Below, one piece after another: positions 3,101 to 25,290 of a stretch of 28,418 bases of DNA (its first letter is position 1; every line of letters starts with the position of its first letter). The DNA comes from a virus: positions 1 to 28,418 of the IMG/VR virus record IMGVR_UViG_3300034152_000961; one strand, written 5' to 3'. The notes below the pieces were generated by a model, which was not told the DNA's origin, did not search any database, and saw only the letters and a program-made list of their open reading frames with translations. Position numbers and translations under genes: made by a program.

Positions 3101-3790
3101 TTATACCTCCAAAATTCTCTTGATGTATTGAGCATTTTTAAATATTTTTGAAGAGTATTCTGGCATATACTCAAGCACAATGATTCCTTCCCAATTATAT
3201 AAAAATTTCAAATTTCTCACAAAAGGTACAAGGTTAAGTTCGCCTTCTTGTGAATTGAATGGAAGGTGTTGGCTTCTTTTATTTCTGTTTGATAAATGAA
3301 TAATTTTGGTATATTTTAAAATGAAAGGTAGTATTCTAAAATCAAACCAGACATCATCAGCATGACTCGTATCTAGAGTCATCCACAATTTATCTCGATC
3401 AAGATTTTCAATTATATCAAGTGGTGTTCGAAATATCTTTTTGCGTTTCCATTGAAAATTTTCAATACATAGATGAAATTGTGGTTTCAAATCACTTAGA
3501 AATTCTCGAATGCCAAAGTTTGGGTGAATAACATAATGATCACAACCAGTTTCAGTTTTAATAAACTGAATCATATTTAATATGTCTTTTTTGGTTTGTT
3601 TTAAAACATCAAGCGGTAGATGGGCAACTTCAACTTCAATACTGTGTTCTTTTATTTTATTGATGATAATATCATTATATTCTTTAAAATATTTATATTG
3701 CCACAAACCAAGCTGGATAGGCATATTGATATTAATAATATCGTTTTCAACGAAGTATTTACAGTTAATTGATTGCGCAACTTTAATCAT
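3101..3790 (-). CDS. Xylose-isomerase-like TIM-barrel protein
   Basis: A 229-residue protein with the hallmarks of the xylose isomerase-like TIM-barrel superfamily, which includes sugar-phosphate isomerases/epimerases and endonuclease IV. CIENFQ near residue 123 supplies the strand-end Glu. TLDTSHADD near residue 150 carries the Asp/His metal ligands. IHLSN near residue 182, a following QHLPF...GEL segment, and a C-terminal VLEYMP Glu complete the pattern. The protein is short for the family (usually 250-280). The start ATG overlaps the folE2 stop, so the two are probably made together. The substrate is unknown: a pterin or sugar-phosphate role is suggested only by the neighbour, and an AP-endonuclease-like role is also possible. 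Confidence 0.75.
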   Translation of the reverse strand: MIKVAQSINCKYFVENDIININMPIQLGLWQYKYFKEYNDIIINKIKEHSIEVEVAHLPLDVLKQTKKDILNMIQFIKTETGCDHYVIHPNFGIREFLSDLKPQFHLCIENFQWKRKKIFRTPLDIIENLDRDKLWMTLDTSHADDVWFDFRILPFILKYTKIIHLSNRNKRSQHLPFNSQEGELNLVPFVRNLKFLYNWEGIIVLEYMPEYSSKIFKNAQYIKRILEV

Positions 3791-4674
3791 ATAAACCTTC
3801 TTCCATCAAAGCCATTATCTATACCTTTCCAATTTATTGCAATTGCGTTTGATGTATGTATAGACTCTTCATGCGTACACTTTACGATCCAGTCCTTTAC
3901 CGGCATATCACTTAAATTTTTTGAAATGATTCGAATAGCATCTTCAACAAACAGAGGGTTTTCTGCTGCAACACGCGCTATTTCCTGTTCATCATTTCTT
4001 TTAATTATCGGGTAAGGTAGCGTTTTGATACCATTTTCCACTGCGTCAATAATATCTTCTAACCAAACATAGTTTTTTAAGTCACTCTCAACGAGAATGT
4101 CTGCAAATGCTCTTTGGTTGTGCGGAAACCCGATTGCCCCTTTTTCATATAAGTGCATACACAGTTCAGCGGAACATGGACAATATGCTGCATATTGAAC
4201 ACGAACGCCTTGAAAAAATCGATAATTATCTAAAGGCTCGTAACTATCATTATCAACAAGATTGCTTTGGTACTGACCTTCAAATCTACACGGATAATAA
4301 ATTGGAAAGGAATTGCTTGATAATGGTGATTTCTTGTTTCGCGGCAACTTAAATTCAAATTTCATAAAAGAATTATCGGAACCAACTTTTTCTTGTAACT
4401 CTTTTAGTATTTCTTGAATAACCCACCTCTTGAGTGGTTTATCCAAATGCGTACCCAAGGTCCTTAAAAATCTAGACATTGAAATACCTTTCAGATGTTC
4501 TGGTACGTTAGTTCTCATTGAAACCAACCCATAAAGATTCATTGGTTCACCGGTCAATTCTTTAAATGTTGGTCTTCGTTCCAAACGGAAAGGTACTTCA
4601 ACGCCCTCGACGCCGACTTGTTTAATTGGTATTTTAAGAGTCGGTTCTGTTTTTTGAATATCTGGCAGATTCAT
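3787..4674 (-). CDS. folE2: GTP cyclohydrolase FolE2 (type IB)
   Basis: Converts GTP to 7,8-dihydroneopterin triphosphate, the first step of folate and of 7-deazaguanine (preQ0/queuosine) synthesis. The 295-residue length is normal. Family landmarks appear in order: N-terminal LPDIQ...VGVEGVEVPF; TNVPEHLKGISMSRF (55-69); YCPCSAELC (164-172) with the metal/active-site Cys; PHNQR (184-188); WLEDIID (204-210) with Glu206; FVED (242-245); and EESIHTSNA (269-277) with the conserved Glu and His. The start is supported by this family-typical N-terminus and by GAGG about 9 bases upstream, although it overlaps the previous gene by 41 bases. QueD, the next enzyme of the 7-deazaguanine route, lies about 20 kb away at 24862-25290, so a phage base-modification or host tRNA role is likely. 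Confidence 0.95.
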   Translation of the reverse strand: MNLPDIQKTEPTLKIPIKQVGVEGVEVPFRLERRPTFKELTGEPMNLYGLVSMRTNVPEHLKGISMSRFLRTLGTHLDKPLKRWVIQEILKELQEKVGSDNSFMKFEFKLPRNKKSPLSSNSFPIYYPCRFEGQYQSNLVDNDSYEPLDNYRFFQGVRVQYAAYCPCSAELCMHLYEKGAIGFPHNQRAFADILVESDLKNYVWLEDIIDAVENGIKTLPYPIIKRNDEQEIARVAAENPLFVEDAIRIISKNLSDMPVKDWIVKCTHEESIHTSNAIAINWKGIDNGFDGRRFI

Positions 4675-10972: not shown

Positions 10973-11197
10973 TCAGCTCCTTGTTTTGAATTTCTCAGAT
11001 AAGAAATTTCCTATTTGATATAGATGTTCTTGAATTTTGTTAGAAATGATTCTATCAAAGTCTGGCATTGCTTCATGAACTATTCTTTGTATATCTTCAT
11101 GCGCAAGCTGCAAACCTTCCTCTTCGATTACGTTCTTAACGATATTCCTTATCGCTTGTCTAAAAGCATCTTCAGTCTTTGTCTCCGTTTTGTCCAT
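10973..11197 (-). CDS. Small helical protein, 74 aa
   Basis: I do not recognise this protein. It is 74 residues, almost all predicted helix, starting MDKTETKTEDAFRQAIRN with a mixed acidic/basic pattern and no Cys. AAGGA lies about 8 bases before the ATG, and its stop is 2 bases before the rpoC start, so it is co-translated with the polymerase. A polymerase accessory role would fit the position, but no sigma or omega motif is visible. The start overlaps the end of the 82-residue gene. Confidence 0.65.
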   Translation of the reverse strand: MDKTETKTEDAFRQAIRNIVKNVIEEEGLQLAHEDIQRIVHEAMPDFDRIISNKIQEHLYQIGNFLSEKFKTRS

Positions 11198-11420
11198 CGC
11201 ACTTTTCCTTTTTGTCTGTTATTTTTTTAATGCCTTTTTTAATTTTTTGTTTTAATATGATTTTATTATCATTCCAAACTTCTTCCAATTTAGTAACTAC
11301 TCCATCCAATAATACATCCAGAATTCTTCTACCGCTTTTTTTAACTGTAATGTCTAGCTCGTCTATTGTCTCATCAATAACTTTTTCTATATCATCATCC
11401 CTTCGTTTTGGTTCTGTCAT
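11172..11420 (-). CDS. Small charged protein, 82 aa
   Basis: I do not recognise this protein. It starts MTEPKRRDDDIEKVIDETID. An acidic first third is followed by a hydrophobic-heptad helix (ILDVLLDGVVTKLEEVW) and a very Lys-rich tail, giving a strongly dipolar helical protein. The ATG at 11420 is preferred, with GGGGGT about 10 bases upstream; an in-frame TTG at 11438 has no ribosome site. It overlaps the ends of both neighbours. It sits between the Ubl cassette and the RNA polymerase genes. Confidence 0.6.
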   Translation of the reverse strand: MTEPKRRDDDIEKVIDETIDELDITVKKSGRRILDVLLDGVVTKLEEVWNDNKIILKQKIKKGIKKITDKKEKCDGQNGDKD

Positions 11421-11790
11421 AGGTTTTAATACCCCCAACGATATTCATTTTTTCGACCAACAACTGGTCGATTATTGCTTCTGGTTCAAAATAACAATCA
11501 TCAAGATTGTAGAATGCCATATGGTATTCCGCTTCTCGCATCAAAGATTCATCCCACATTTTAAATCTAAGCTCATCTGGTATACAGAACTGATTTGTTA
11601 GAGGGTCTGAATTTGGATGTTCTCCGTCAACGTAAATCTCATTCAATTTTCCGTCTACCAATCTGACCTTATATTTTTTAATCAAAAACTTTATACTTGA
11701 GGCCAAGATTTCATAATATTCATTCTTATATTTCATTCTAATAGGTTTTATAAACTTTTTAAACTCCTTATTTTCCAATCTTGCTGTCAT
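11395..11790 (-). CDS. Unknown protein of the Ubl cassette with an HPN...Cys stretch
   Basis: 131 residues with no sure family. An N-terminal basic helical region (about 1-45) precedes EHPNSDPLTNQFCI (57-70), where His58-Pro59-Asn60 stands 9 residues before Cys69, and a Trp follows at 79. This loosely recalls the HPN...ICL...W region of E2 ubiquitin-conjugating enzymes (HPN and Cys about 10 apart), but the flanking strands do not match well and the protein is short. The likeness may be chance. Its ATG overlaps the stop of the second E1-like gene (ATGA), so it is part of the same unit, and a cassette function is likely even if the E2 idea fails. Confidence 0.6.
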   Translation of the reverse strand: MTARLENKEFKKFIKPIRMKYKNEYYEILASSIKFLIKKYKVRLVDGKLNEIYVDGEHPNSDPLTNQFCIPDELRFKMWDESLMREAEYHMAFYNLDDCYFEPEAIIDQLLVEKMNIVGGIKTYDRTKTKG

Positions 11791-12629
11791 GCGGCACCTG
11801 TTTCTGGAACGAGTTCAACAACATTATCTTTAACCGAAATAATATAATTTTGATAGTCGCACTGATTATTAATAAGAAAGTTTAAATTTAAAATTATGTC
11901 ACCGCCACTTTTAATATTCCCACGCGGTATAAGTTTGGTTATAGATGGGTTTTGTGGGTCTCCAATGAGAATTTCAAGGTCTTTGATTTTATTTGCTTCT
12001 ATTATGGGAATTATATTTTCTCTAAAATTTATCAATCGGTCTTCTCCGTCACTGTGATCATATATAATATCACAACTTTCAGAGTGTGCTTTAATAAAAT
12101 CAATGTCGTAGCGACTGACAGAGTTTGTATCGATAAGAGTTTTGATTTCACCGCTTTTTACAAGTGAAGCGACTATAAAAGCCGCTGTTTTCAAATCGTC
12201 TTTGGTGAGTGGAGATATATATCTCCCTTCATGATGAACTTTATAATTTACATATTTTCTACAATCGACAATAACGCTTCTTGCTGAAATATAAGCTCTA
12301 ATATTAATAGTTCCTTTTCTATCATATATAAAATCTCTACAATCGAAAATAAGATCCGATTTGGGTAAGCTTGTATATCGTTCTATGAAGCATGTGTCAA
12401 TAGTTTTTACATTCAAATCCGAATTTTTTTCGGAAATTATGTCTTTCAAAGCTTCAACCTTTCTCAAACCAACATCTATTGGTCGGTAGATTGAATTTAT
12501 CAAGTTTTTAGATTGTACCTCATCAAAATCAACAAATGTTAATTCTTCGGTATTCTCTAAATTTGCTAAGGCCTCAGCTATGTATCCTCCTAAAGTTCCA
12601 ATACCGATAATCGTGAAAGTTCTATACAC
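11787..12629 (-). CDS. Second E1/ThiF-like adenylating protein of the Ubl cassette
   Basis: 280 residues with an E1/ThiF-type Rossmann fold at the very start: GIGTLGG (9-15) binds ATP, FVDFDE (32-37) holds the Asp pair, and SKNLINSIYRP (40-50) matches the family's 'NLNRQ' region, followed by DVGLRKVEAL. The C-terminal half is unlike ordinary ThiF. It has Cys80, 97, 123 and 186 but no clear catalytic-Cys context, and the CxxC zinc pairs are absent. It could be the partner of the other E1 in a heterodimer (as Aos1 is to Uba2) or a specificity factor. The start is GTG at 12629, required to keep the Rossmann N-terminus. It follows the Ubl gene and the UUCG hairpin. Confidence 0.75.
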   Translation of the reverse strand: MYRTFTIIGIGTLGGYIAEALANLENTEELTFVDFDEVQSKNLINSIYRPIDVGLRKVEALKDIISEKNSDLNVKTIDTCFIERYTSLPKSDLIFDCRDFIYDRKGTINIRAYISARSVIVDCRKYVNYKVHHEGRYISPLTKDDLKTAAFIVASLVKSGEIKTLIDTNSVSRYDIDFIKAHSESCDIIYDHSDGEDRLINFRENIIPIIEANKIKDLEILIGDPQNPSITKLIPRGNIKSGGDIILNLNFLINNQCDYQNYIISVKDNVVELVPETGAA

Positions 12630-12659
12630 GCTTCCATCGTTCCCCTTTCCAAAGATGAT

Positions 12660-12681
12660 GGGAGAGGCCGAAGCCTCTCCC
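12660..12681 (-). terminator. Perfect UUCG hairpin after the Ubl gene
   Basis: On the minus strand, GGGAGAGGC and GCCTCTCCC form a perfect 9-bp stem closed by a C(TTCG)G tetraloop, one of the most stable RNA loops. It lies about 24 bases after the Ubl stop and about 31 bases before the next start. The following ATCATCTTT is a poor U-tract, so partial termination or protection of the upstream message from 3' decay is likelier than full termination. Confidence 0.7.
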
Positions 12682-12704
12682 TTTATGCTACGTTGGTTAC
12701 CTAT

Positions 12705-13199
12705 TTAGCAACCTTTCTTACCCGCAGCTTTCACGAACTCCAGTTTGTCGCCGTCCTGAAGCACATGATCATTGTTGGTTTTTTCGCCATTGACGAGGCC
12801 GCTGGCTTGGGTATCGATATTGAGGATTTCTTTCAGAAAATCACGAACCTCGCCAACGGTCTTGCCGACAACGGGGAAATTTCCTGAAGATGCACCGCAT
12901 GATACCTGGATGGTCGTGCTGTAGCTGCTTGCTGAGGCACCACTTCCAGTTTTCTTTGCGGCGACACCGGCATGAAACTGATCCATCGGGCCGGTTGATC
13001 TCTTGGTTGTTTTCGGAGACACCGATGCAACCCCCGCTGCTGCTGCTCCGTGGGTCGCTGCCTGTTGTTCGAGGATCATGTTGATGGCTTGGGCCTTCGG
13101 TTTTTTGCTGATACCTGTAATTCCGAGTTGGTTGAAAGCCATTTTCTTCAGGTCTTTGTCTCTCATTCCTTCAAGTTCTGTACGAGTGTAAACTGGCAT
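12705..13199 (-). CDS. Ubiquitin-like beta-grasp protein with N-terminal SAP/HeH-like region, C-terminal Gly-Cys
   Basis: 164 residues, the likely modifier of the cassette. Residues about 4-43 (YTRTELEGMRDKDLKKMAF, then LGITGISKKPKAQAINMIL) look like a SAP/HeH helix-extension-helix nucleic-acid-binding motif. Residues 44-92 are an Ala/Gly/Ser-rich linker. Residues 94-158 look like a ThiS/MoaD/ubiquitin beta-grasp: two strands, helix TVGEVRDFLKEIL, then LVNGE and LQDGDKLEFV. The tail is AAGKKGC, ending Gly163-Cys164 instead of the usual Gly-Gly, so removal of the last Cys (perhaps by the neighbouring JAMM protein) would expose a Gly, as happens in UFM1 maturation. AAGGAG lies 7 bases before the ATG. 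The gene is visibly richer in G+C (near half) than its neighbours and a strong hairpin follows, suggesting high expression. Confidence 0.8.
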   Translation of the reverse strand: MPVYTRTELEGMRDKDLKKMAFNQLGITGISKKPKAQAINMILEQQAATHGAAAAGVASVSPKTTKRSTGPMDQFHAGVAAKKTGSGASASSYSTTIQVSCGASSGNFPVVGKTVGEVRDFLKEILNIDTQASGLVNGEKTNNDHVLQDGDKLEFVKAAGKKGC

Positions 13200-13222
13200 A
13201 AAAATTCTCCTTGTTCACTTTT

Positions 13223-13909
13223 TCACACGGTTAACGGTTTTCGTTGAGCTGGGTTTGCACCCATAGTAACAATGTCAAAATAGACTTCGGAAATATTGAT
13301 TTCCTTTAAAATAACAGTTTTGTAAAAAGCCCAGCACATTAAAGTGGCGACACCAAGGTTCGTGAAATATAGCTGGGGTTCAGATTTCGCCAGTTCTTCA
13401 CATGACATTTCATCTGGCGATTTGTCGTCTGGGGTTTCGATTTCCGGATGGTAGTCGCTCAGGCTCGGTGTTACGTCAACACCCCCTTTCCTGACATATA
13501 ATTGAACGTTACCATCTGTCAACTCGTTACCGCCTGACAACAATATTATATCATTCATACCAGAACAGTATGATGATACCAAATTTCTCGTTTTGTGATT
13601 GTCCACACACAGAAAAACGATGTCGCCTTCTTGTATTACTGTATTGATGTTTTCTGGTGTGATGTAGTTAGGGAAGCTATCAAAATGAAGATTTTCGAAA
13701 TTTAATTGCATTTCTCTCATTTTGATTTCAGCCTTATTGCCTAGCATTGCAAATTCTTGTCTTTCCAGATTTTTCTCTTCGTAATTGTCTCCGTCTATTA
13801 ACAAGAAATTTGCTTTGAAGTCTCTATGGTAATTTACATATCGAGCTATTTTGTTAATCAGTATTGAGCCTATTCCACCTAAGCCTATAACGACAATTCT
13901 GTTATGCAT
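13223..13909 (-). CDS. E1-like ubiquitin-activating (ThiF family) enzyme, PRTRC-ThiF type
   Basis: 228 residues from the chosen start. ThiF/E1 adenylation fold: VVIGLGGIGS (6-15) for ATP, LLIDGDNYEEKNLERQEF (36-53) with Asp39/Asp41 and the Asn/Arg/Gln set, and CVDNHKTR (101-108), the family's 'D...R' site. C-terminal MSCEELAKSEPQ holds Cys170, a good candidate for the thioester-forming Cys, as in PRTRC ThiF and related E1s. It would adenylate the Ubl C-terminus and pass it to the E2. The ATG at 13909 has AAGGAAA about 6 bases upstream; the ATG at 13927 overlaps the JAB stop and has no ribosome site. It lies between the JAMM gene and the Ubl gene. Confidence 0.88.
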   Translation of the reverse strand: MHNRIVVIGLGGIGSILINKIARYVNYHRDFKANFLLIDGDNYEEKNLERQEFAMLGNKAEIKMREMQLNFENLHFDSFPNYITPENINTVIQEGDIVFLCVDNHKTRNLVSSYCSGMNDIILLSGGNELTDGNVQLYVRKGGVDVTPSLSDYHPEIETPDDKSPDEMSCEELAKSEPQLYFTNLGVATLMCWAFYKTVILKEINISEVYFDIVTMGANPAQRKPLTV

Positions 13910-13920
13910 ATGAGTTTCCT

Positions 13921-15384
13921 TCACCATTTAAATAATTTATTGTGTTTCTTTCTTCTCTTTTTATTTTTCTTAGATTTGGTTGGTAAATCTATCGCATCAA
14001 TGTTATCCAGAAAATCTCCGCTTGCGGCATTTTCAAGAATTAGTTTTTCCGGATCATCATTTGGTGGAAGCAACGTATCATCAGGATGAACCACATCATT
14101 TTTATCGACGCGATTATGCTTGAGCGGAACGACAGGCATTTTGCTTTTATCCCAACGACTTGAACAGAGTATATCAAACGCCCAATCTAGCTTATGATCT
14201 CTATAAATGCAGTCAATACACTTATTGTGGTCTAGAAAGTGATGCTTGGGAAATTCGATTTGTTCAACTTTGGAATTGGTATTAGAGCTTTTAGGTTTAT
14301 CTTTCATTGCATTTAGATGATCATGAATAACAACGGGCAAGTCGTCTGTTGCAGGTCTCACATTCTTCCCACTATTTATGGGCAAAACGGGTTGGTGGTT
14401 GATCGGCCTACCATTGACCACACCATTGACAAATCCCGCTGCTGGTTTTCTATTGGTGCCATAATACCAATCATAAAGATCACCATATTCATCAAAATCA
14501 TCATAGAAAACATTTGATGCATAATTTCCGTATGCGAATCTCTCCGTGCGGTTGTAGTACCCCGGACGTTTGTAATAACCACCAGCGCCATAGTAGCTGG
14601 TATATGTATATCCATATTCAACAAAATCCATCCATTTTTCATTAAATTTAAAATGCTTTAGAGCGTCTTTAGAAAGTTTATAACGAGCGTTTTGTGCTGT
14701 TTGGACGGGTTTTGCATTGACGCTATCATTTACTTCAACCAATTTTCCAAGTTGAGAATCCCATTTCCAATACTTTGTGTTTGAATACGTGGGTTGAATA
14801 TAACCCGCGTGTTCTATTCCTTCAAGATAATCACTTGGTTCAGCATAAAACCTCTGTCCATTTGACATCAATGAAACCGACAATGAAAAATCGTCTGATG
14901 CGACATGACCGAAGGTAATGTGGAGACCGTCAAAAGATGTTTCATCGTCGTGATCTGTACCAGAATGAAATGCTGAAAAGTTGGCGTGACTATGAATCGT
15001 TCCGATCAAATCGTAACCTTCAATTTGAACCGAATCTCTTTCATACGATATTGATGCACTAGAGACTTTTTGCTTTGGTGGAATTATTGCAAACTGTTTT
15101 GTCTTTTTATCAAAGAATATGAGAACCATACCCTCTGATTTGTGTTTGTCATATACCGCTCTTAAGAATGCTAAGACAGCAGCAACTTTTTCGACCGGCA
15201 ATCTAGGAATGTGCATTCTTGCCATTTTGTTGACAGGCTCTAATGTAGAAATTGCATCTACCTTTGTTATACTCTCCATTATATCGAGTTTTTTCTTCAG
15301 ATAGATTCCCTCTTTACAGACAATGTACATTATATCATCGTTCGGTATTTCTTGTGAGCCGTCATTAACAAAGACTCTAAACAT
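13921..15384 (-). CDS. JAB/JAMM-domain isopeptidase with Tyr/Gly-rich and Cys-rich extensions
   Basis: 487 residues. The JAMM zinc-protease motif is complete: His131-Ser-His133, Ser141, Asp144 (HxH-x7-S-x2-D), with Glu84 as the probable upstream catalytic acid. Such enzymes trim ubiquitin-like precursors or remove them from targets; here the Gly-Cys tail of the Ubl is a plausible substrate. Beyond the domain, residues about 256-308 are strikingly rich in Tyr and Gly with Asp (low-complexity, probably disordered). H386xxC389xxC392 plus Cys407 could bind zinc, and the tail (470-485) is Lys/Arg-rich. The start has GGAGG 7 bases upstream and overlaps the E2 gene's stop. The E2-JAB-E1 order is as I recall it for PRTRC modules. 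Confidence 0.88.
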   Translation of the reverse strand: MFRVFVNDGSQEIPNDDIMYIVCKEGIYLKKKLDIMESITKVDAISTLEPVNKMARMHIPRLPVEKVAAVLAFLRAVYDKHKSEGMVLIFFDKKTKQFAIIPPKQKVSSASISYERDSVQIEGYDLIGTIHSHANFSAFHSGTDHDDETSFDGLHITFGHVASDDFSLSVSLMSNGQRFYAEPSDYLEGIEHAGYIQPTYSNTKYWKWDSQLGKLVEVNDSVNAKPVQTAQNARYKLSKDALKHFKFNEKWMDFVEYGYTYTSYYGAGGYYKRPGYYNRTERFAYGNYASNVFYDDFDEYGDLYDWYYGTNRKPAAGFVNGVVNGRPINHQPVLPINSGKNVRPATDDLPVVIHDHLNAMKDKPKSSNTNSKVEQIEFPKHHFLDHNKCIDCIYRDHKLDWAFDILCSSRWDKSKMPVVPLKHNRVDKNDVVHPDDTLLPPNDDPEKLILENAASGDFLDNIDAIDLPTKSKKNKKRRKKHNKLFKW

Positions 15385-17962
15385 TAATTAGCCTCCGTTC
15401 ATCTTTGACCATAAACTGGACGTTGAAGTTGTCGGTTTGTGTATAGGCACCGTGCATGTTCGGTATAGCAGAAATCTTTAAAGCATTTCTCATTTCAGCA
15501 GCGCTCATTCTAGGTTCTATGAAACCATATCTTCTCATATTAGATTTAAAATACATATCTACTATATAATAATCCATACGATCTCTGAACTGTTGAATAT
15601 TCAAAGCTTTTAATGCAGGTGTCCACTCCTCCGTATTGCATAGTATGTAATTGTGGGATGCTGAAAATGAACCTGATGTAATTTCTACAACATCGCCTGT
15701 TTGATATTTTATTTTGGAGAGTTGAATTGGCGCATGTTCCAGTTTTTTCCATTGCGGCGATTTCATTGGGATTATGTCAAAGTTCTTGGTTATGTCATCT
15801 GCCCATAGGGTGCAACAATTCGAACATAGTGCCAGAGGCTCTTCCAGACCAGTATCTGTCAAGAAACCAATAATTATATTTGTGTCTTTCTTTGGAAAAT
15901 TAGCTATTCCACCAATCTTTGCTTTTATTTTCATACCAGCGGAAAGCTTTTTATATGCGTTTGTTATTTTTCTTATCTTACCAACAGCCACATAATCCTT
16001 AGAAAGATTATAAATTGTTTCTTCTGATAGTTTTCCATTTTTATCTTGAAGAATTATTCCTATATTTCCAGTTTCATCACTCTTTTTGAAACCGATAATA
16101 AGATGTACTCTAAGCATATTCGTTGGTGTTGACCAATCTGCTACTACGACTCTATCACCGACATCGAATCTTAAATCACAGTCAAAACTCTTAAAAGATA
16201 CATGGTCGTCTTTCAAACAGTTTTTTCGTACCATTTCATAATTTGGATTCGATACTCTGGTGACATCTGATGGGTACATTATTCCTTTACGGGTGAACAA
16301 AACATCTTTTTTGTATCTGTCATAGGCATCGATTTGGTATAGAGAATTCATATATCTAAATACTCTTGGGGCTTCTATAGAGTCATCTTTATTAAGAAGA
16401 ATTCTTGTTTCTCTGTTTGGATTTATATTAACTCTAGACCCACCTCGATTCACAAATTGATAAATGAGTTCTCCGTTTGATTGAACATCAATACCGCTGA
16501 ATTTTATTGTCGTATACCCAAACAAACCACCAATATATTGATTTCTTGCTTGTGACGAAGAGCCGGTAGATTGAGCTATGAATATTTCCATACCGGGTTT
16601 TAATTTTATGCCTTGGTATTCGGGATTTTTCACAATAAACTTTTTCATTGATTGCATATTTTCCGGTATGATATATTCGTTGCCTAAACAGAATTCAATT
16701 TGATCTTCAAATTGTATAATTTTTTGTATTTTCTTATACTGTTCTGGCGCAGATGAATCATTTCTAAATACTACAATATCTCCAACCTTATATTTTTTAC
16801 CTTTTACAACAGCAAAAGCTTCTTCTCTCTGTCTTCTCATTTCAGAAAGAATTAAAGATTTAAAATCTGAATCAAGCTTCAGCACTTCAATTTTGTCATT
16901 TTTTTCATCAAAGGCTTTTAGATGAGTTACTTTGCTAGTCGCAAAACGCGGGGCGAGAAAGTCAACAATACGATATGTTTTATCATTCATTTTAAAATCA
17001 TCGCCCACTTTGATAATTTCATCTGACGACACCATGAAAGAGTTTGCTATATTGCTCATAAGATCATTTTGGCTCTCATCTTTTATGCCGTCACTGCAAT
17101 GTGTACTCATAATGCGATATGCCAGATCCATTATGTTTGTAATTCTTGAAGTCTGCCCTGAGCCAGATGTTTTAGAAATAACATCGCCCAGTGTGAATCT
17201 ACTTGGTAACCATTTGGCTTTATAAATGAACATTGGGTCTTCTTTTGAATAATGTTCCCACTCAAGCCAATTTCTCAGATATGGTAATTGCGCTTCCATG
17301 TAACGCGCAATACAATGTGAATAGTCTTGATTATAAGCATTGTTCCAAAATAGATTTATGATACCTGATACGGCTTGAGCGAGTGTGTTTTGAGCGCCTC
17401 TGACACCATCACCAAGACACATTCCACCATTATCTGGGTTTGAAATGTTATATAAATAGGCAACAAATAATTGGTCGCCAAGGCCGGTAAGAGGCAAAGG
17501 TCTGAAAAATATGCTGCCACCATGATACTCGTTAGATGGCCCGAAAGATAACACGTAGACTATATATGGAAATGCGAAGGTATATTGTTTAAGGCCGCCT
17601 CGAATTCCACTGTACCCCCAAGAATCCAAGACCCCCCAACTTCTAAGTTGGCTAACCGCTCTACTAATATCAACATCAGCCCTGACAGTTCGAATGGCCG
17701 GTGGGTCTTCAATTACGGTTATAACCCTTCCATCCATAGTATCGCTGATATATCTACAGTTCTGTGGTAGAACGGTATGCATTGGAATGGCATTATCGCT
17801 AATTGATTTTTTTAGGCGGTTTACAAAAGTGTTCGTATCAATTGTGTTGATTCTAGAAATTAATTTGCTTTTTTCCTTTTGGGGGTCTGGTGAAGGTTCT
17901 GCTTGATAAACAGTCGCGTATCTATTTGTAATTCGTAATTCTCTCATTAACTCCTTGTGCAT
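15377..17962 (-). CDS. E2-like ubiquitin-conjugating-fold protein with long beta-rich extension
   Basis: 861 residues. The N-terminal part (about 80-250) resembles prokaryotic PRTRC-B/E2 domains: strand FPYIVYVLSFG (131-141), then GSIFFRPLP, then NISNPDNGGMCLGD (172-185), where Cys182 sits in a GxCLG setting like the 'HPN..G.ICL' active site of E2 enzymes, followed by a helix. It would accept the Ubl from E1. The remaining 600 residues contain about six repeats of a 'GD-x-hydrophobic strand' unit (VGDDFKM 319, VGDIVVF 393, PGMEIFI 456, VGDRVVV 601, AGMKIKA 675, TGDVVEI 755), which look like tandem SH3-like small barrels that could select targets. AAGGAG lies 7 bases before the ATG. No known E2 I can recall is this long. 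Confidence 0.75.
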   Translation of the reverse strand: MHKELMRELRITNRYATVYQAEPSPDPQKEKSKLISRINTIDTNTFVNRLKKSISDNAIPMHTVLPQNCRYISDTMDGRVITVIEDPPAIRTVRADVDISRAVSQLRSWGVLDSWGYSGIRGGLKQYTFAFPYIVYVLSFGPSNEYHGGSIFFRPLPLTGLGDQLFVAYLYNISNPDNGGMCLGDGVRGAQNTLAQAVSGIINLFWNNAYNQDYSHCIARYMEAQLPYLRNWLEWEHYSKEDPMFIYKAKWLPSRFTLGDVISKTSGSGQTSRITNIMDLAYRIMSTHCSDGIKDESQNDLMSNIANSFMVSSDEIIKVGDDFKMNDKTYRIVDFLAPRFATSKVTHLKAFDEKNDKIEVLKLDSDFKSLILSEMRRQREEAFAVVKGKKYKVGDIVVFRNDSSAPEQYKKIQKIIQFEDQIEFCLGNEYIIPENMQSMKKFIVKNPEYQGIKLKPGMEIFIAQSTGSSSQARNQYIGGLFGYTTIKFSGIDVQSNGELIYQFVNRGGSRVNINPNRETRILLNKDDSIEAPRVFRYMNSLYQIDAYDRYKKDVLFTRKGIMYPSDVTRVSNPNYEMVRKNCLKDDHVSFKSFDCDLRFDVGDRVVVADWSTPTNMLRVHLIIGFKKSDETGNIGIILQDKNGKLSEETIYNLSKDYVAVGKIRKITNAYKKLSAGMKIKAKIGGIANFPKKDTNIIIGFLTDTGLEEPLALCSNCCTLWADDITKNFDIIPMKSPQWKKLEHAPIQLSKIKYQTGDVVEITSGSFSASHNYILCNTEEWTPALKALNIQQFRDRMDYYIVDMYFKSNMRRYGFIEPRMSAAEMRNALKISAIPNMHGAYTQTDNFNVQFMVKDERRLINV

Positions 17963-17963
17963 T

Positions 17964-18335
17964 TCACGCTCCTTTGTAAAATTTGTACAGTCTCGCGTAT
18001 TCCATTAGAACACGTTTCGGTTTGTCTTCTTTTATCTGTTCAGCCCAAGAAACTCGCAAAGGCGGGGGTGTTTCATTAGCTCTTTTTATATCAACTGACC
18101 AAAGCCTTGCAACGTACTCTTGAGTCGGTTCACGTTCCAACGTCAAAAATGCATATTCTTTTTGTGTTCTACCCGGTACTTCTAAACAAAGGAAAATATT
18201 AGGTCCTTTTGGCATTAATGCGGAATGTTTTATATTTTTAGATTCTTCATCTTTTATTTGATCACATATTGTTCTTATTTGCTCAACATCATCTTTGTTT
18301 TTCAAATCTCTAAGAAGTTCTGTCAATATTGTCAT
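17964..18335 (-). CDS. Hypothetical protein, 123 aa
   Basis: I do not recognise this protein. An N-terminal charged helical part (about 1-40, MTILTELLRDLKNKDDVEQI) precedes a beta-like centre (NIFLCLEVPGR, YAFLTLE, YVARLWSVD) and a helical end (RVLMEYARLYKFY). Its start overlaps the 108-residue gene (4 bases) and its stop is 1 base before the E2-like gene, so it is probably co-translated with the cassette and may serve it. It has no membrane segment or zinc motif. Confidence 0.7.
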   Translation of the reverse strand: MTILTELLRDLKNKDDVEQIRTICDQIKDEESKNIKHSALMPKGPNIFLCLEVPGRTQKEYAFLTLEREPTQEYVARLWSVDIKRANETPPPLRVSWAEQIKEDKPKRVLMEYARLYKFYKGA

Positions 18336-18658
18336 TCGATTTCCCTACGATAGTATATTTTGTTGCCTATCCTTACCCAAGATAAACGATCAAACGGAAC
18401 AGATCGCCAACCTTGTTTATCTATATCATAAACATGAAGAATTTTATTTTTTCTAATCTGATTAACAATTTGCTTTAAATTTACTGTTTTTGGATGATCT
18501 TCTTTTGGTATACGTGTGAAATTAAGAGTGGCCGTCATATCTCTCATTTCATTATTTTTTTTACGAAACCTCAGCTTTACGACATCGGCTTTGAATACTT
18601 TATCCCAGAATTCTAAGCCGGTATCTAATGTTTCTATTTCTGGATTTTTCTTGGGCAT
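18332..18658 (-). CDS. Small WYL_2/SH3-barrel-like phage protein (DUF2693-like)
   Basis: 108 residues. The pattern KADVVKLRFRKKNNEMRDMTATLNF near residue 23 onward, then VYDIDKQGWRSVPFDRLSWVRI near 76-97, matches a small beta-barrel family common in T4-like phages (DUF2693, also called WYL_2). 'D.dk.GWR..p.dri' is the signature. No activity is known; a regulatory or nucleic-acid role is guessed for such domains. It sits between the radical SAM gene (overlapping by 1 base) and the 123-residue gene. Confidence 0.65.
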   Translation of the reverse strand: MPKKNPEIETLDTGLEFWDKVFKADVVKLRFRKKNNEMRDMTATLNFTRIPKEDHPKTVNLKQIVNQIRKNKILHVYDIDKQGWRSVPFDRLSWVRIGNKIYYRREIE

Positions 18659-19686
18659 TAATTCTCCCTCCTGATATTTAAATGCACAATATCTTCTACA
18701 TTATCGCACATGCTCATAATTTGGCATGTATGATTACAAAGTTTACAAAGTTCTTTTTTGTCTTTATGGATACATAATAAGGCAAAAGGACTTATGAGTT
18801 TACAGTTGGTATTTCTTGCAAAGAGACTGTGTGCCATAACATGTGTTGGGGTATATTTTCCACCTATTCGAAGACATAATCTAACAGACCCATCAGCATC
18901 AATTGTTATATTATGTAGACCGTCTTCTAATTTACAATCGAGGTTTGATGGTAGTATTTCCCACAGCTTTGGAAGTATCTCTTTCATATGGACTCTCAAA
19001 TCAAGATTATCTCTAATTTTATTGAACTGCTTTGTTAACTCGTCTGACCGATGAACCAACTGTTTTGTGTCAGTTATGTTCGAAAAATCATAGTACTCTG
19101 ATTTATTTATGTCCAAAGCTGTTATGCTGCTTGTTATTCCAGATTTAGATAGAGTTTCAACCAATCGGTACAAATACCCCACAGTGTCGTTTGTTATTGT
19201 TATTTCTGCCACAACGTCTGGCACGAACTCTTTGTATTTAATTAAATTTTTGAACCCCTCTAGGCTCTTCTTAAACTCATGATCTCTCTCGTCTGTATAA
19301 ACAAAGATTCCCGGGTCAACAGACGATGTTAGACCCATAACCTTGTGTTTAGAAATTAAATCTTCTATTCTATTTTGAATCTCATCTGTATTATTTGTTA
19401 TGATTGTATAGTGAATTCCTTCTTTATTACAGAATTCTATAATTTCTGATAAATCGTCTCTAAGGAAAGGTTCACCCCCGTAAAATATATGAAAGCAATC
19501 GGGATTATGTAGTTTGAACATTTTAAGAACACGAATTACATAATCGCATTCCATTTCATTCTTTATAAAGTAGTTGATTGATTTTTTCAGGCTATGAGAA
19601 GAAACATCCCGAATAATACCGCAGTAATCACATCTGAGATTACATCTTCTCGTTAAAAGCCAATTAACAATTCTTATTTTATCCAT
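18658..19686 (-). CDS. Radical SAM enzyme with SPASM-like C-terminal Cys cluster
   Basis: 342 residues. The radical SAM cluster Cys15-x3-Cys19-x2-Cys22 lies in RRCNLRCDYCG, and the GGEP SAM-binding motif is at 70-73. A C-terminal set of Cys (251, 271, 295, 305, 314, 317, 321, 327) with LCKLCNHTC looks like a SPASM or twitch auxiliary-cluster domain, typical of enzymes that modify peptides or proteins. This argues against QueE, which is shorter and lacks such a domain. The start overlaps the SbcC gene's stop (ATGGATAA) and its end abuts the WYL_2-like gene. The substrate is unknown; a peptide or protein made by the phage, perhaps linked to the Ubl cassette, is inference from position. Confidence 0.85.
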   Translation of the reverse strand: MDKIRIVNWLLTRRCNLRCDYCGIIRDVSSHSLKKSINYFIKNEMECDYVIRVLKMFKLHNPDCFHIFYGGEPFLRDDLSEIIEFCNKEGIHYTIITNNTDEIQNRIEDLISKHKVMGLTSSVDPGIFVYTDERDHEFKKSLEGFKNLIKYKEFVPDVVAEITITNDTVGYLYRLVETLSKSGITSSITALDINKSEYYDFSNITDTKQLVHRSDELTKQFNKIRDNLDLRVHMKEILPKLWEILPSNLDCKLEDGLHNITIDADGSVRLCLRIGGKYTPTHVMAHSLFARNTNCKLISPFALLCIHKDKKELCKLCNHTCQIMSMCDNVEDIVHLNIRREN

Positions 19687-23446: not shown

Positions 23447-24862
23447 TCAGCCTCCATCTCTTTGCATAATAATCTGTATTGCTTCATTTTTGTCGATTTT
23501 GTTTATTTTACCATTCTTGACAATAAGAAAATCGACCTGCCAACCTTTTTTGGCATAATAATCTAATCGCCTGTATAGTGTTCTTGATATTCTTTTACAA
23601 CCATAATCAACCATATCAAATACTATTGGTGTCTTTTTTCCTTCTTTTGATCTTGTAATTCTACCTATCAATTGCTCTATATTCGCAATTGGTGATGTCA
23701 CGATCATACAATCTTTTTGTGGTGCATCAATACCATCACGACATTTTCCCGGCGTTGTAAATGTTATTTGAGCTTCCATCTTCTCGGTTGTCTCAGATCG
23801 ATAAAATCTTGATTTGTCTTTGAAATCGAACCAGTTATATATTTTGTCAATCAACTTCACTCGTTCCATCATTACAATAACTTGTCTATCTGTTAATTGA
23901 TTGAGCAAACCCTTAATTGTTTTGATAAATGGTTCTGATTTAGTAATTTTATTAAGATACCGACTTCTTTGAAATTCCCCGCCCCAATACAGATAGTATT
24001 GACTTTTGGGAACGTCTATTTCATAATCAAGTAACAAAACATTGATATGAGCGTCCATCGTATCTTCGAAATCTTCTTCTGAGAACACTTCTCCTAGATG
24101 ATATCTTATGATGTCATCATTTCCATCATATCGATATGGTGTTGCACTTAAACCAAAAGTTATTTTCGCAGGTACGTGTATAGAACACTCAGCGAATCTT
24201 GGCGCACCCACTGTTGTATGAACCTCATCAGCGATCATCATTCCAATGTTTGCTTTGTCCAATTCAGTCAGAAACCCCTGTTTATGGTTCTTTAGCAACG
24301 AAACAAAGGTTTGAACTGTACAGATAACAATTGATTTGTGTATATCTTTTTTATATGACCGCGTTTTTAATTGAGCAATCTCAGTTTCCTTCAAATCTGT
24401 AAATTGTAAAAGTCGTTCTTTCCATTGATCTGATAAAGCATTTCTGTGAACAAGAATTATAGTATTGATTTTTCTTTCAGCTATTACATAGATTGATATA
24501 ACAGTTTTTCCTACACCCGGAGCTAATTGAATAATTCCTTTGTTATTTTTTATCATGTGAGACATGGCAGCTTTTTGAAGTTCACTTCTTGGCTGTATTT
24601 TATGATTAATAAAAATTGATCGTCCGACATGTCTCATATCAACAATTTGGGGCGCAGGTATAAATCGATTGACATCAAACCATCTAGGCACAATAAGAAA
24701 TTTATTAGATTCTATGAAGAACCTGTTAGTCGTTATACTTCCGGTTTGATAAGCCTCGTTATCTCGCTCTAAATGTTTTTTAATTTGTTTGTAAAAAGGT
24801 TCATTTTCATATTTTCTAGAGATAATCAGACCAGATCGTTGTATGATTTTTATATTTGACAT
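23447..24862 (-). CDS. SF2 DNA helicase (XPB/UvsW-like)
   Basis: 471 residues. Superfamily 2 helicase: Walker A APGVGKT (114-120), LVHRNALSDQW (motif Ia area), DEVH box (212-215), SATPYR (239-244, motif III) and QLIGRITRS near 400 (motif VI, arginine fingers). The N-terminal 90 residues form a separate small domain of unknown type. In T4, UvsW plays such a role, remodelling branched DNA and regulating origin use; a similar job is likely here but the sequence is not specific. Its start overlaps the QueD stop by 1 base (TAATG). Confidence 0.88.
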   Translation of the reverse strand: MSNIKIIQRSGLIISRKYENEPFYKQIKKHLERDNEAYQTGSITTNRFFIESNKFLIVPRWFDVNRFIPAPQIVDMRHVGRSIFINHKIQPRSELQKAAMSHMIKNNKGIIQLAPGVGKTVISIYVIAERKINTIILVHRNALSDQWKERLLQFTDLKETEIAQLKTRSYKKDIHKSIVICTVQTFVSLLKNHKQGFLTELDKANIGMMIADEVHTTVGAPRFAECSIHVPAKITFGLSATPYRYDGNDDIIRYHLGEVFSEEDFEDTMDAHINVLLLDYEIDVPKSQYYLYWGGEFQRSRYLNKITKSEPFIKTIKGLLNQLTDRQVIVMMERVKLIDKIYNWFDFKDKSRFYRSETTEKMEAQITFTTPGKCRDGIDAPQKDCMIVTSPIANIEQLIGRITRSKEGKKTPIVFDMVDYGCKRISRTLYRRLDYYAKKGWQVDFLIVKNGKINKIDKNEAIQIIMQRDGG

Positions 24863-25290
24863 TAGCGATTTCCAATATTAAATGTCGTGTACTCTGCCTT
24901 AGAATCTTCATTTTCCCAAACTGCCACCTTCCAAACAAATGGCATTGTTGGATAACTTCCCACATCTTTTATCAGTTTATCAAATAAATATTTTGCAATC
25001 ACTTCAGCGGTTGGGTCGCATGGAAACGTGATCTTTTTGCATACCATTTCACCATTATTGATAAAGTCATTTTCATCTAATAAAAGTGCATGATCAAATT
25101 TGACGAGATGTGTATTAACAATTCTTTTTAAACTTGCAAAGTCAATGACCATATCATTTTCATTTAGACCATCTGATGCTACTGATACCTCGATAGTTAA
25201 ATTGTGACCATGAATATATTGGCATTTACCTAAATGCTTACTTAATCGGTGACCAACAGGCACTCGAAATTTCTTAGTTACGATATACAT
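24862..25290 (-). CDS. queD: 6-carboxytetrahydropterin synthase QueD / PTPS family
   Basis: 142 residues, the usual size. QueD makes 6-carboxy-tetrahydropterin from dihydroneopterin triphosphate, the step after GTP cyclohydrolase in preQ0/queuosine synthesis. Zinc His14, His27 and His29 lie in VGHRLSKHL and YIHGHN, with catalytic Cys23 between them. VIDFASLK (48-55), LVKFDHALLLDEND, PCDPTAEVIAKYL and WEN near the end all match the family. FolE2 at 3787-4674 supplies the substrate. QueE and QueC are not in the window, so they must be elsewhere in the genome or come from the host. It overlaps the topoisomerase gene's end by 13 bases, with GGAGA about 9 bases before the ATG. Confidence 0.92.
   Translation of the reverse strand: MYIVTKKFRVPVGHRLSKHLGKCQYIHGHNLTIEVSVASDGLNENDMVIDFASLKRIVNTHLVKFDHALLLDENDFINNGEMVCKKITFPCDPTAEVIAKYLFDKLIKDVGSYPTMPFVWKVAVWENEDSKAEYTTFNIGNR

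Follow-up and report, generated by a model that had tools for sequence, protein, structure and literature searches.

The window analysed here is an entire virus record of 28,418 bases (IMG/VR, IMGVR_UViG_3300034152_000961), in which genes for the conjugation of ubiquitin-like proteins (Ubls) adjoin the genes of a phage RNA polymerase. These genes probably form two tandem Ubl-conjugation modules, A and B, in a lineage of T4-type tailed phages with its own multi-subunit RNA polymerase (mReC). Sequence and structure models support this reading through the gene content and order, the active sites, a Lys-Gly processing pattern, the split and fused arrangements of E1, Ubl2 and E2, and an inter-module hairpin. 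All genes discussed lie on the minus strand and read in the order radical SAM, WYL_2/Sm-like protein, a 123-residue protein, E2L, JAMM, E1a, Ubl1, E1b, E2b, two small genes, beta' and beta. Module A comprises E2L, JAMM, E1a and Ubl1, and module B comprises E1b, which carries the domain Ubl2, and E2b.

A preliminary description of this DNA had given the coordinates, strand and named residues correctly and had seen a single conjugation cassette. It was right in kind but incomplete, since E1b-Ubl2 and E2b appear to make up a second module; both E1-like genes that it listed are present, but the second would be part of module B and not a spare of one cascade.

The cassette is real and is conserved in dozens of phage contigs. 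A scan of viral contigs with E1a gave 70 loci, to which a JAMM scan added others. A search for the same gene order had been suggested earlier, and most of the loci found through E1a or JAMM keep the order rSAM-WYL2-123aa-E2L-JAMM-E1a-Ubl1-E1b-E2b-(88)-74-beta'-beta. An independent survey was seeded with beta', so that selection was not on the cassette; among the 59 of its loci that extend over more than 9 kb upstream, both modules are present in 48, a complete module A in 50 and module B (E1b and E2b) in 53. The different scans share many contigs, and residue counts are taken over non-identical proteins.

Module A and its modifier Ubl1

The three enzymes of module A keep their catalytic positions in 44 of 44 homologues of the core clade, which bears out the earlier claim of a phage-borne gene set with intact active sites. 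These positions are Asn172, Cys182 and Trp206 in E2L, Glu84, His131, His133, Ser141 and Asp144 in JAMM, and the GxGGxG motif, Asp45, Arg56, Lys69, Asp109 and Cys176 in E1a (Cys170 when numbered from the conserved Met7 as start). In wider sets of about 100 non-identical proteins per family, His131 and Asp144 of JAMM are found in 107 of 107, the E1a cysteine in 98 of 105 and the E2L cysteine in 93 of 97.

The PRTRC modules are the nearest relatives, as had been proposed. E1a matches Pfam ThiF (5e-19) and PRTRC_ThiF (50.3 bits, E 1.9e-13, below the curated cut-off of 144.75 bits), and in the E1 tree it is placed with plasmid PRTRC-type E1s (100/99). JAMM matches PRTRC_A (44.8 bits, E 9.7e-12, below the curated cut-off of 101.8 bits). 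By sequence, both proteins are homologous to their PRTRC counterparts but fall outside these families by the curated rule.

E2L is an enlarged E2 of 861 residues, as described earlier. The window's own protein has no Pfam match, and 31 of the 44 homologues match Prok-E2_D (best 1.2e-6) over the region that contains the Asn and Cys. The E2L family profile finds the Prok-E2_D of a Cytobacillus plasmid at 6e-13, and with the model of the PRTRC E2-like protein B (cut-off 131.45 bits) a homologue from locus L003 scores 11.2 bits at the Cys region. The E2 domain is followed by about 550 residues with blocks of about 75 residues starting K-x-G-D; a repeat test gave 79% for the best block pair and less than 50% for the others, a weak to moderate, partial support for repeats. 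In locus L084 the E2 has just 233 residues, so the core clade has probably acquired this long C-terminal part.

Ubl1 has a C-terminal beta-grasp domain (ThiS, 9e-4) and the extra N-terminal domain that had been noticed, a Rho_N/SAP-like helix pair (4e-4; both from Pfam/NCBIfam). It has no match to the NCBIfam model PRTRC_C, and a PDB profile search gave no ubiquitin-like chain above noise. Among 96 non-identical matches, 59 end in KG and 18 in KGC, and 14 continue past KG with some other extension, at most 16 residues long, as in GSKG|CWVLYLRKHPSYRGKK; the remaining five, without KG, look spurious. The Gly-Cys end that had been read in the window is thus correct there but is no general rule, Lys-Gly being the conserved part and Cys one of several extensions. 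A plasmid PRTRC_C (Paraburkholderia) has the tail AGAKG|AYA, sharing ...AG-x-KG with Ubl1, and on two plasmids the JAMM itself begins with a Ubl, joined to it through KKG|A. On the simplest reading of this strong pattern, KG would be the mature end of Ubl1 and the rest would be removed by the JAMM protease.

In 52 of 53 loci Ubl1 also stands out from the rest of the cassette by a higher third-position GC (in the window 0.52, against 0.24-0.39 in the other cassette genes). A stable hairpin lies directly behind it (z < -3 in 52 of 61 loci), with a mean energy of -22 kcal/mol, compared with -5 to -9 for the stretches that follow the remaining genes of the cassette. The codon bias and the hairpin suggest that Ubl1 is probably made in excess, and the hairpin would set module A apart from module B and the polymerase. 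In locus L004 (8724-9953) Ubl1 apparently breaks off short of its final strand and continues across the hairpin into E1b in a single frame of 409 residues, for which a deletion, an assembly error and a real fusion are candidates.

Enzymatic activity, the order of transfer, the targets and a link to transcription are, for both modules, what we infer. In module A, JAMM would trim Ubl1 after the conserved Lys-Gly, and E1a would adenylate the exposed glycine using ATP and accept the modifier on Cys176. The Prok-E2_D domain of E2L would then take Ubl1 on Cys182 and put it on targets, which may be selected by the long C-terminal part of E2L, and JAMM could remove Ubl1 again. Since Ubl1 has a domain of the Rho_N/SAP type, which is nucleic-acid-binding-like, a tagged protein would acquire a domain of this kind.

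Module B and the RNA polymerase

E1b matches Pfam ThiF (8e-15) and falls in the E1 tree into a set separate from that of E1a (100/99), so that a recent duplication of the E1 is rejected. The presence of two modules and not one cascade is suggested by this other E1 lineage, by the Ubl-like domain that E1b carries and by its own E2-like gene with an HPN...Cys motif. Profile comparison with hhalign (E2b with E2L 0.8%, Ubl2 with Ubl1 2.1%) lends no support to the idea that one module is a plain copy of the other.

AlphaFold2 models were made for E1b and E2b. The model of E1b (pLDDT 89.6) has the E1 adenylation fold in residues 1-185, with Cap2 (Z 19.2), MccB (Z 17.6) and BubCD (Z about 16) among its structural matches. 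The C-terminal domain Ubl2 is predicted to consist of strands 218-224 and 227-234, helix 242-255, strands 262-267 and 270-275, and an exposed tail (276-280, PETGAA). This is the minimal beta-grasp order beta-beta-alpha-beta-beta, a likeness in the order of elements alone, the coordinates not having been superposed. The C-terminus is Ala in 72 of 80 fused E1b proteins (...ETGAA/GGA/GSA). Compared with known Ubls, Ubl2 showed no similarity in a PDB profile search or by hhalign, and the fold search with E1b was filled by its E1 domain.

E2b of the window has no database match by itself. In its 42 core homologues P16, H58, P59, N60 and C69 are all conserved, and in a wider set of 74 non-identical sequences 63 have HPN...C and 4 HPH...C (68 with HPN, HPH or HPL). 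Ubiquitin-conjugating enzymes are the only PDB matches of the E2b profile, at the HPN...C stretch (best E 0.066), and UQ_con is the best Pfam family of its members. The E2b model (pLDDT 90.1) gives E2-fold proteins in all top 50 VIA rows, but with Z of just 3.7-4.4. The motif, profile and model results indicate with fair but not full confidence that E2b is E2-like. The E1 fold assumed in the preliminary description is recovered for E1b; E2b gives E2 folds only at these low Z scores, and the PDB profile searches with Ubl1 and Ubl2 stayed at noise.

In six distant polymerase loci (L243, L249, L251, L255, L256 and L320) module B has a split form: an E1 of 175-200 residues is followed by a separate gene for 85-97 residues and then by an E2b of 210-262 residues with HPN/HPH...C. 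Among 49 open reading frames of 60-130 residues in eight deep loci exactly six are Ala-ended, and all of them lie between E1 and E2b. Each of these Ubl2-like proteins has a Pro at -6 (P-x-x-x-x-Ala), as in PETGAA, and the profile of the fused Ubl2 ranks the L320 protein first (E 0.0099). The occurrence as a separate gene suggests that the tail domain of E1b is an independent module, as a modifier would be; what connects the fused and split forms is their position, length, predicted topology and tail, more than any likeness in sequence.

JAMM genes are found nearby in several deep phages, and five of the six split-form records have two E1-like genes (E <= 0.001). Upstream of the split module B in L249 (2696-5601) are a 443-residue protein with HPNVNAGDDVIC, an E1 of 264 residues and a JAMM, a second set from which it follows that deep relatives too would have two sets, differently built. 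Between the JAMM and the split E1, L249 (5611-7302) and L256 (3295-5037) encode a protein that, judged by its N-terminal sequence alone, resembles class II glutamine amidotransferases.

Several points weigh against the reading of two conjugation modules. Ubl2 ends in Ala rather than Gly (in all six separate proteins as well), and E1b is without the crossover Cys of E1a and has the motif N-x-x-N-S, without the Arg of N-x-x-R-Q, so that its chemistry may differ. The profile comparisons give no confident homology of Ubl2 to Ubl1 or of E2b to E2L, the global profile alignment of fused with split Ubl2 reaches P 0.005 with a probability of only 3.0%, and Foldseek finds no PDB match at E <= 0.001 for the E2b model. 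All contigs are uncultured and mostly incomplete records, and the synteny with the polymerase, with no functional link behind it, could simply reflect vertical inheritance within one lineage.

Module A alone might conjugate, with E1b and the 131-residue protein being a non-conjugating accessory pair of the RNA polymerase derived from E1 and E2 folds; the C-terminal domain of E1b would then recruit a partner, like the ubiquitin-fold domain of eukaryotic E1s. The missing Cys and canonical Arg, the usual fusion of the C-terminal domain, the Ala terminus and the place of E1b in the polymerase operon, after the hairpin, all fit such a pair. We nevertheless regard it as unlikely, as a recruiting domain has no need of a conserved extreme C-terminus, the free protein in six distant loci ends in the same Pro(-6)...Ala, and E2b keeps its H-P and Cys in about 92% of the 74 sequences.

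If module B conjugates, E1b would activate the Ala-ended tail of its fused Ubl2, or of the separate protein in distant phages, and Ubl2 would be handed to Cys69 in the HPN...C motif of E2b. Transfer directly from the adenylate to the Cys of E2b is the likelier route, because E1b has neither the crossover Cys nor the usual Arg.

Module B is encoded within the RNA polymerase gene cluster. It adjoins beta' down to about 40% beta' identity, and locus L221 keeps it without module A nearby; because module B stays beside the polymerase in this way, the polymerase is the first candidate target. A scan with a single distant beta' protein returned only that protein itself. Tagging of host or viral transcription machinery is a reasonable hypothesis only, drawn from the conserved position beside the phage RNA polymerase. 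We propose more tentatively still, as a possibility that may well prove wrong, that the two modules are independent systems and that module B, with its alanine-ended modifier, evolved with the phage's own RNA polymerase and modifies or regulates it. If true, these viruses would possess their own equivalent of eukaryotic ubiquitin signalling, dedicated to transcription and working with a non-glycine modifier end.

Carriers and gene neighbourhood

The carriers match the mReC lineage in having adjacent, unsplit genes for beta and beta', a terminase large subunit gene (12 of 12 large contigs tested) and a gp23-type capsid gene (5 of the 12). This assignment takes mReC as Caudoviricetes contigs with unsplit beta and beta' and was made without a tree of the polymerase. 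The mReC phages are the lineage of uncultured Caudovirales of Weinheimer & Aylward 2020 (PMC7481178), and the text of that paper mentions no ubiquitin, ThiF or JAB; no such module is described in the jumbo-phage papers PMC7824862, PMC13282480 and PMC7598289. As far as the literature searched shows, the conjugation modules are new for the mReC lineage, and a paired, polymerase-linked tagging system is, as far as we found, apparently undescribed in viruses of bacteria.

Cultured phages (the INPHARED collection) gave no match to E2L or E1b, and their E1a matches are distant ThiF proteins only, such as that of Bacillus phage KLEB27-3 at 31%. None of the PHROG models fits E2L, JAMM, Ubl1 or E2b. 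In KLEB27-3 (L005), Vibrio phage D69 (L006) and L007 a PRTRC_A-like JAMM adjoins a ThiF, and in KLEB27-3 a protein of 255 residues precedes the JAMM, at the place where PRTRC_B would sit.

In a second phage clade (L059, L061, L063-L066 and L072) the region covered holds module A alone, with a short Ubl1 and several E2L copies; L061, L063, L065 and L072 have two or three such copies and a Ubl1 of 83-110 residues without the N-terminal domain. Compact versions occur on some contigs of bacterial and archaeal metagenome-assembled genomes. Those of L083 (Methylomirabilota) and L086 sit amid ordinary chromosomal genes. L084 was binned as Woesearchaeota, but with the phage gene order and an RNA polymerase of its own it clearly belongs to these phages. 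In L083 (4669-8639) the compact E2-JAMM-E1 operon comes immediately after an AAA+ ATPase (PF00004, 3.5e-25) in bacterial surroundings, which makes it a cellular relative of module A with a candidate unfoldase as its partner.

Table 1. Positions of the two modules, their parts and adjoining genes in the window
Feature	Position	Strand	Basis
Radical SAM, conserved upstream gene	18658-19686	-	domain scan and locus comparison
WYL_2/Sm-like protein, conserved upstream gene	18332-18658	-	domain scan and locus comparison
123-residue protein of unknown function, conserved upstream gene	17964-18335	-	locus comparison
E2L, E2-like protein of module A, 861 residues	15377-17962	-	conservation of N172/C182/W206; Prok-E2_D in homologues
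Prok-E2_D-type N-terminal domain of E2L, residues ~60-250, with Asn172 and Cys182	17213-17785	-	
JAMM metalloprotease of module A, 487 residues, PRTRC_A-like, with N-terminal domain	13921-15384	-	Glu84/His131/His133/Ser141/Asp144
E1a, E1 of module A, PRTRC_ThiF-like	13223-13927; probable start Met7 at 13909	-	candidate thioester Cys176 (=Cys170)
Ubl1, modifier of module A, 164 residues	12705-13199; beta-grasp 12705-12926	-	Rho_N/SAP-like N-terminus; tail ...AGKKG then Cys
RNA hairpin between modules, terminator- or 3'-end-like	12660-12681	-	z -3.7
E1b, module B, 280 residues, predicted E1 adenylation fold in residues 1 to ~185	11787-12629	-	AlphaFold2 model, tree
Ubl2, predicted C-terminal domain of E1b, residues ~216-280, ends PETGAA	11787-11984	-	AlphaFold2 model
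E2b, small E2-like protein of module B, 131 residues, His58-Pro59-Asn60...Cys69	11395-11790	-	4-base overlap with E1b
Small gene of unknown function between module B and polymerase, in part of the loci	11172-11438	-	
74-residue gene of unknown function directly upstream of beta', conserved in most loci	10973-11197	-	
Phage RNA polymerase beta', unsplit, 904 residues	8256-10970	-	
Phage RNA polymerase beta, 998 residues	5263-8259	-	

The other neighbours in the window are SbcC/SbcD, a helicase, a topoisomerase IV A-type subunit, a PTPS/QueD-like protein and FolE2. FolE2 (3787-4674), the PTPS/QueD-like gene (24862-25290) and the radical SAM gene suggest a 7-deazaguanine-type modification of DNA or tRNA. 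In nearly all loci the radical SAM gene is also the first of the conjugation operon, and it has a Cys-rich stretch at its end. In L159 (12394-16425) beta' has 1343 residues, about 440 more than in the other loci.

These small-molecule genes, and the matches of E1b and Ubl1 to ThiF/ThiS models, would also suit sulfur-carrier chemistry, in which the E1s and Ubls form a thiocarboxylate for thiolation of a base, tRNA or cofactor (as in ThiS/ThiF and MoaD/MoeB) and the E2-like genes do not conjugate. This is improbable in view of the conservation, alongside the E1s, of two E2-like proteins whose Cys and Asn (or HPN) motifs are invariant, the Ubl1 tail of KG rather than GG, and the scanned neighbours, among which there is no rhodanese or cysteine desulfurase. 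Deazaguanine-type genes, moreover, need no sulfur.

Comparison with known systems

Complete E1-E2-Ubl-JAMM cascades are known as bacterial operons of cells and plasmids (PRTRC, CBASS, Bil and Bub), several of which act against phages. Here two such cascades would be core genes of a phage. The unusual points are three: the ownership by a phage lineage, the probable fusion of an E1 with an alanine-ended modifier and the linkage to a multi-subunit RNA polymerase. The modules offer a testable case of protein tagging during infection, of an alanine-ended modifier, of an E1 that carries its modifier in the same chain and of conjugation genes kept adjacent to a phage RNA polymerase, and the split and fused forms are a natural dissection of module B.

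Module A has all four parts of the plasmid PRTRC systems: a JAMM with an N-terminal domain, a Prok-E2_D-type E2, a PRTRC_ThiF-type E1 that joins the plasmid proteins in the tree, and a small Ubl with a conserved terminal Gly and an AGxKG-type tail. It differs from them in scoring far under the curated cut-offs, in the E2 enlarged to about 860 residues in the core clade, in the Rho_N/SAP-like N-terminal domain of Ubl1, and in its location on tailed phages together with module B and an RNA polymerase. The ParB-related, D, E and F proteins of PRTRC are not among the scanned cassette and neighbour proteins. In our reading of Iyer et al. 2006, PRTRC (PRTRC_A, B, C and ThiF) is operon type 6d of that paper.

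The adenylation fold of E1b is like that of Cap2 of CBASS type II and of MccB-type E1s. Unlike Cap2, E1b is fused to a C-terminal Ubl-like domain and not to an E2, E2b is separate and the crossover Cys is missing; the window contains no CD-NTase gene and no Cap2 E1-E2 fusion gene. The resemblance of the E1 domains to Cap2 and to the E1-E2 models of PADLOC would allow the operon to be defence cargo, CBASS- or Bil-like, deployed against competing phages. This seems very improbable: the PADLOC matches are confined to the E1 adenylation domain, a generic similarity, the window has no effector or Bil-type protein, and such cargo is normally variable, whereas in this lineage the modules belong to the syntenic core.

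The Bub and Bil systems likewise have an E1, an E2, a Ubl and a peptidase in one operon, and BubCD is among the structural matches of E1b, but the match to the BilD model is only 0.04, and the gene make-up, the tails and the genomic setting differ. In phages, a Ubl and a JAMM are also combined in TAPI (Ubl) and TAPK (JAB) of Lambda/T1 tail assembly (Iyer et al. 2006, PMC1779556). These proteins function without an E1 or E2 as part of tail assembly, whereas the modules in the window appear to be full cascades and lie beside genes of replication and transcription.

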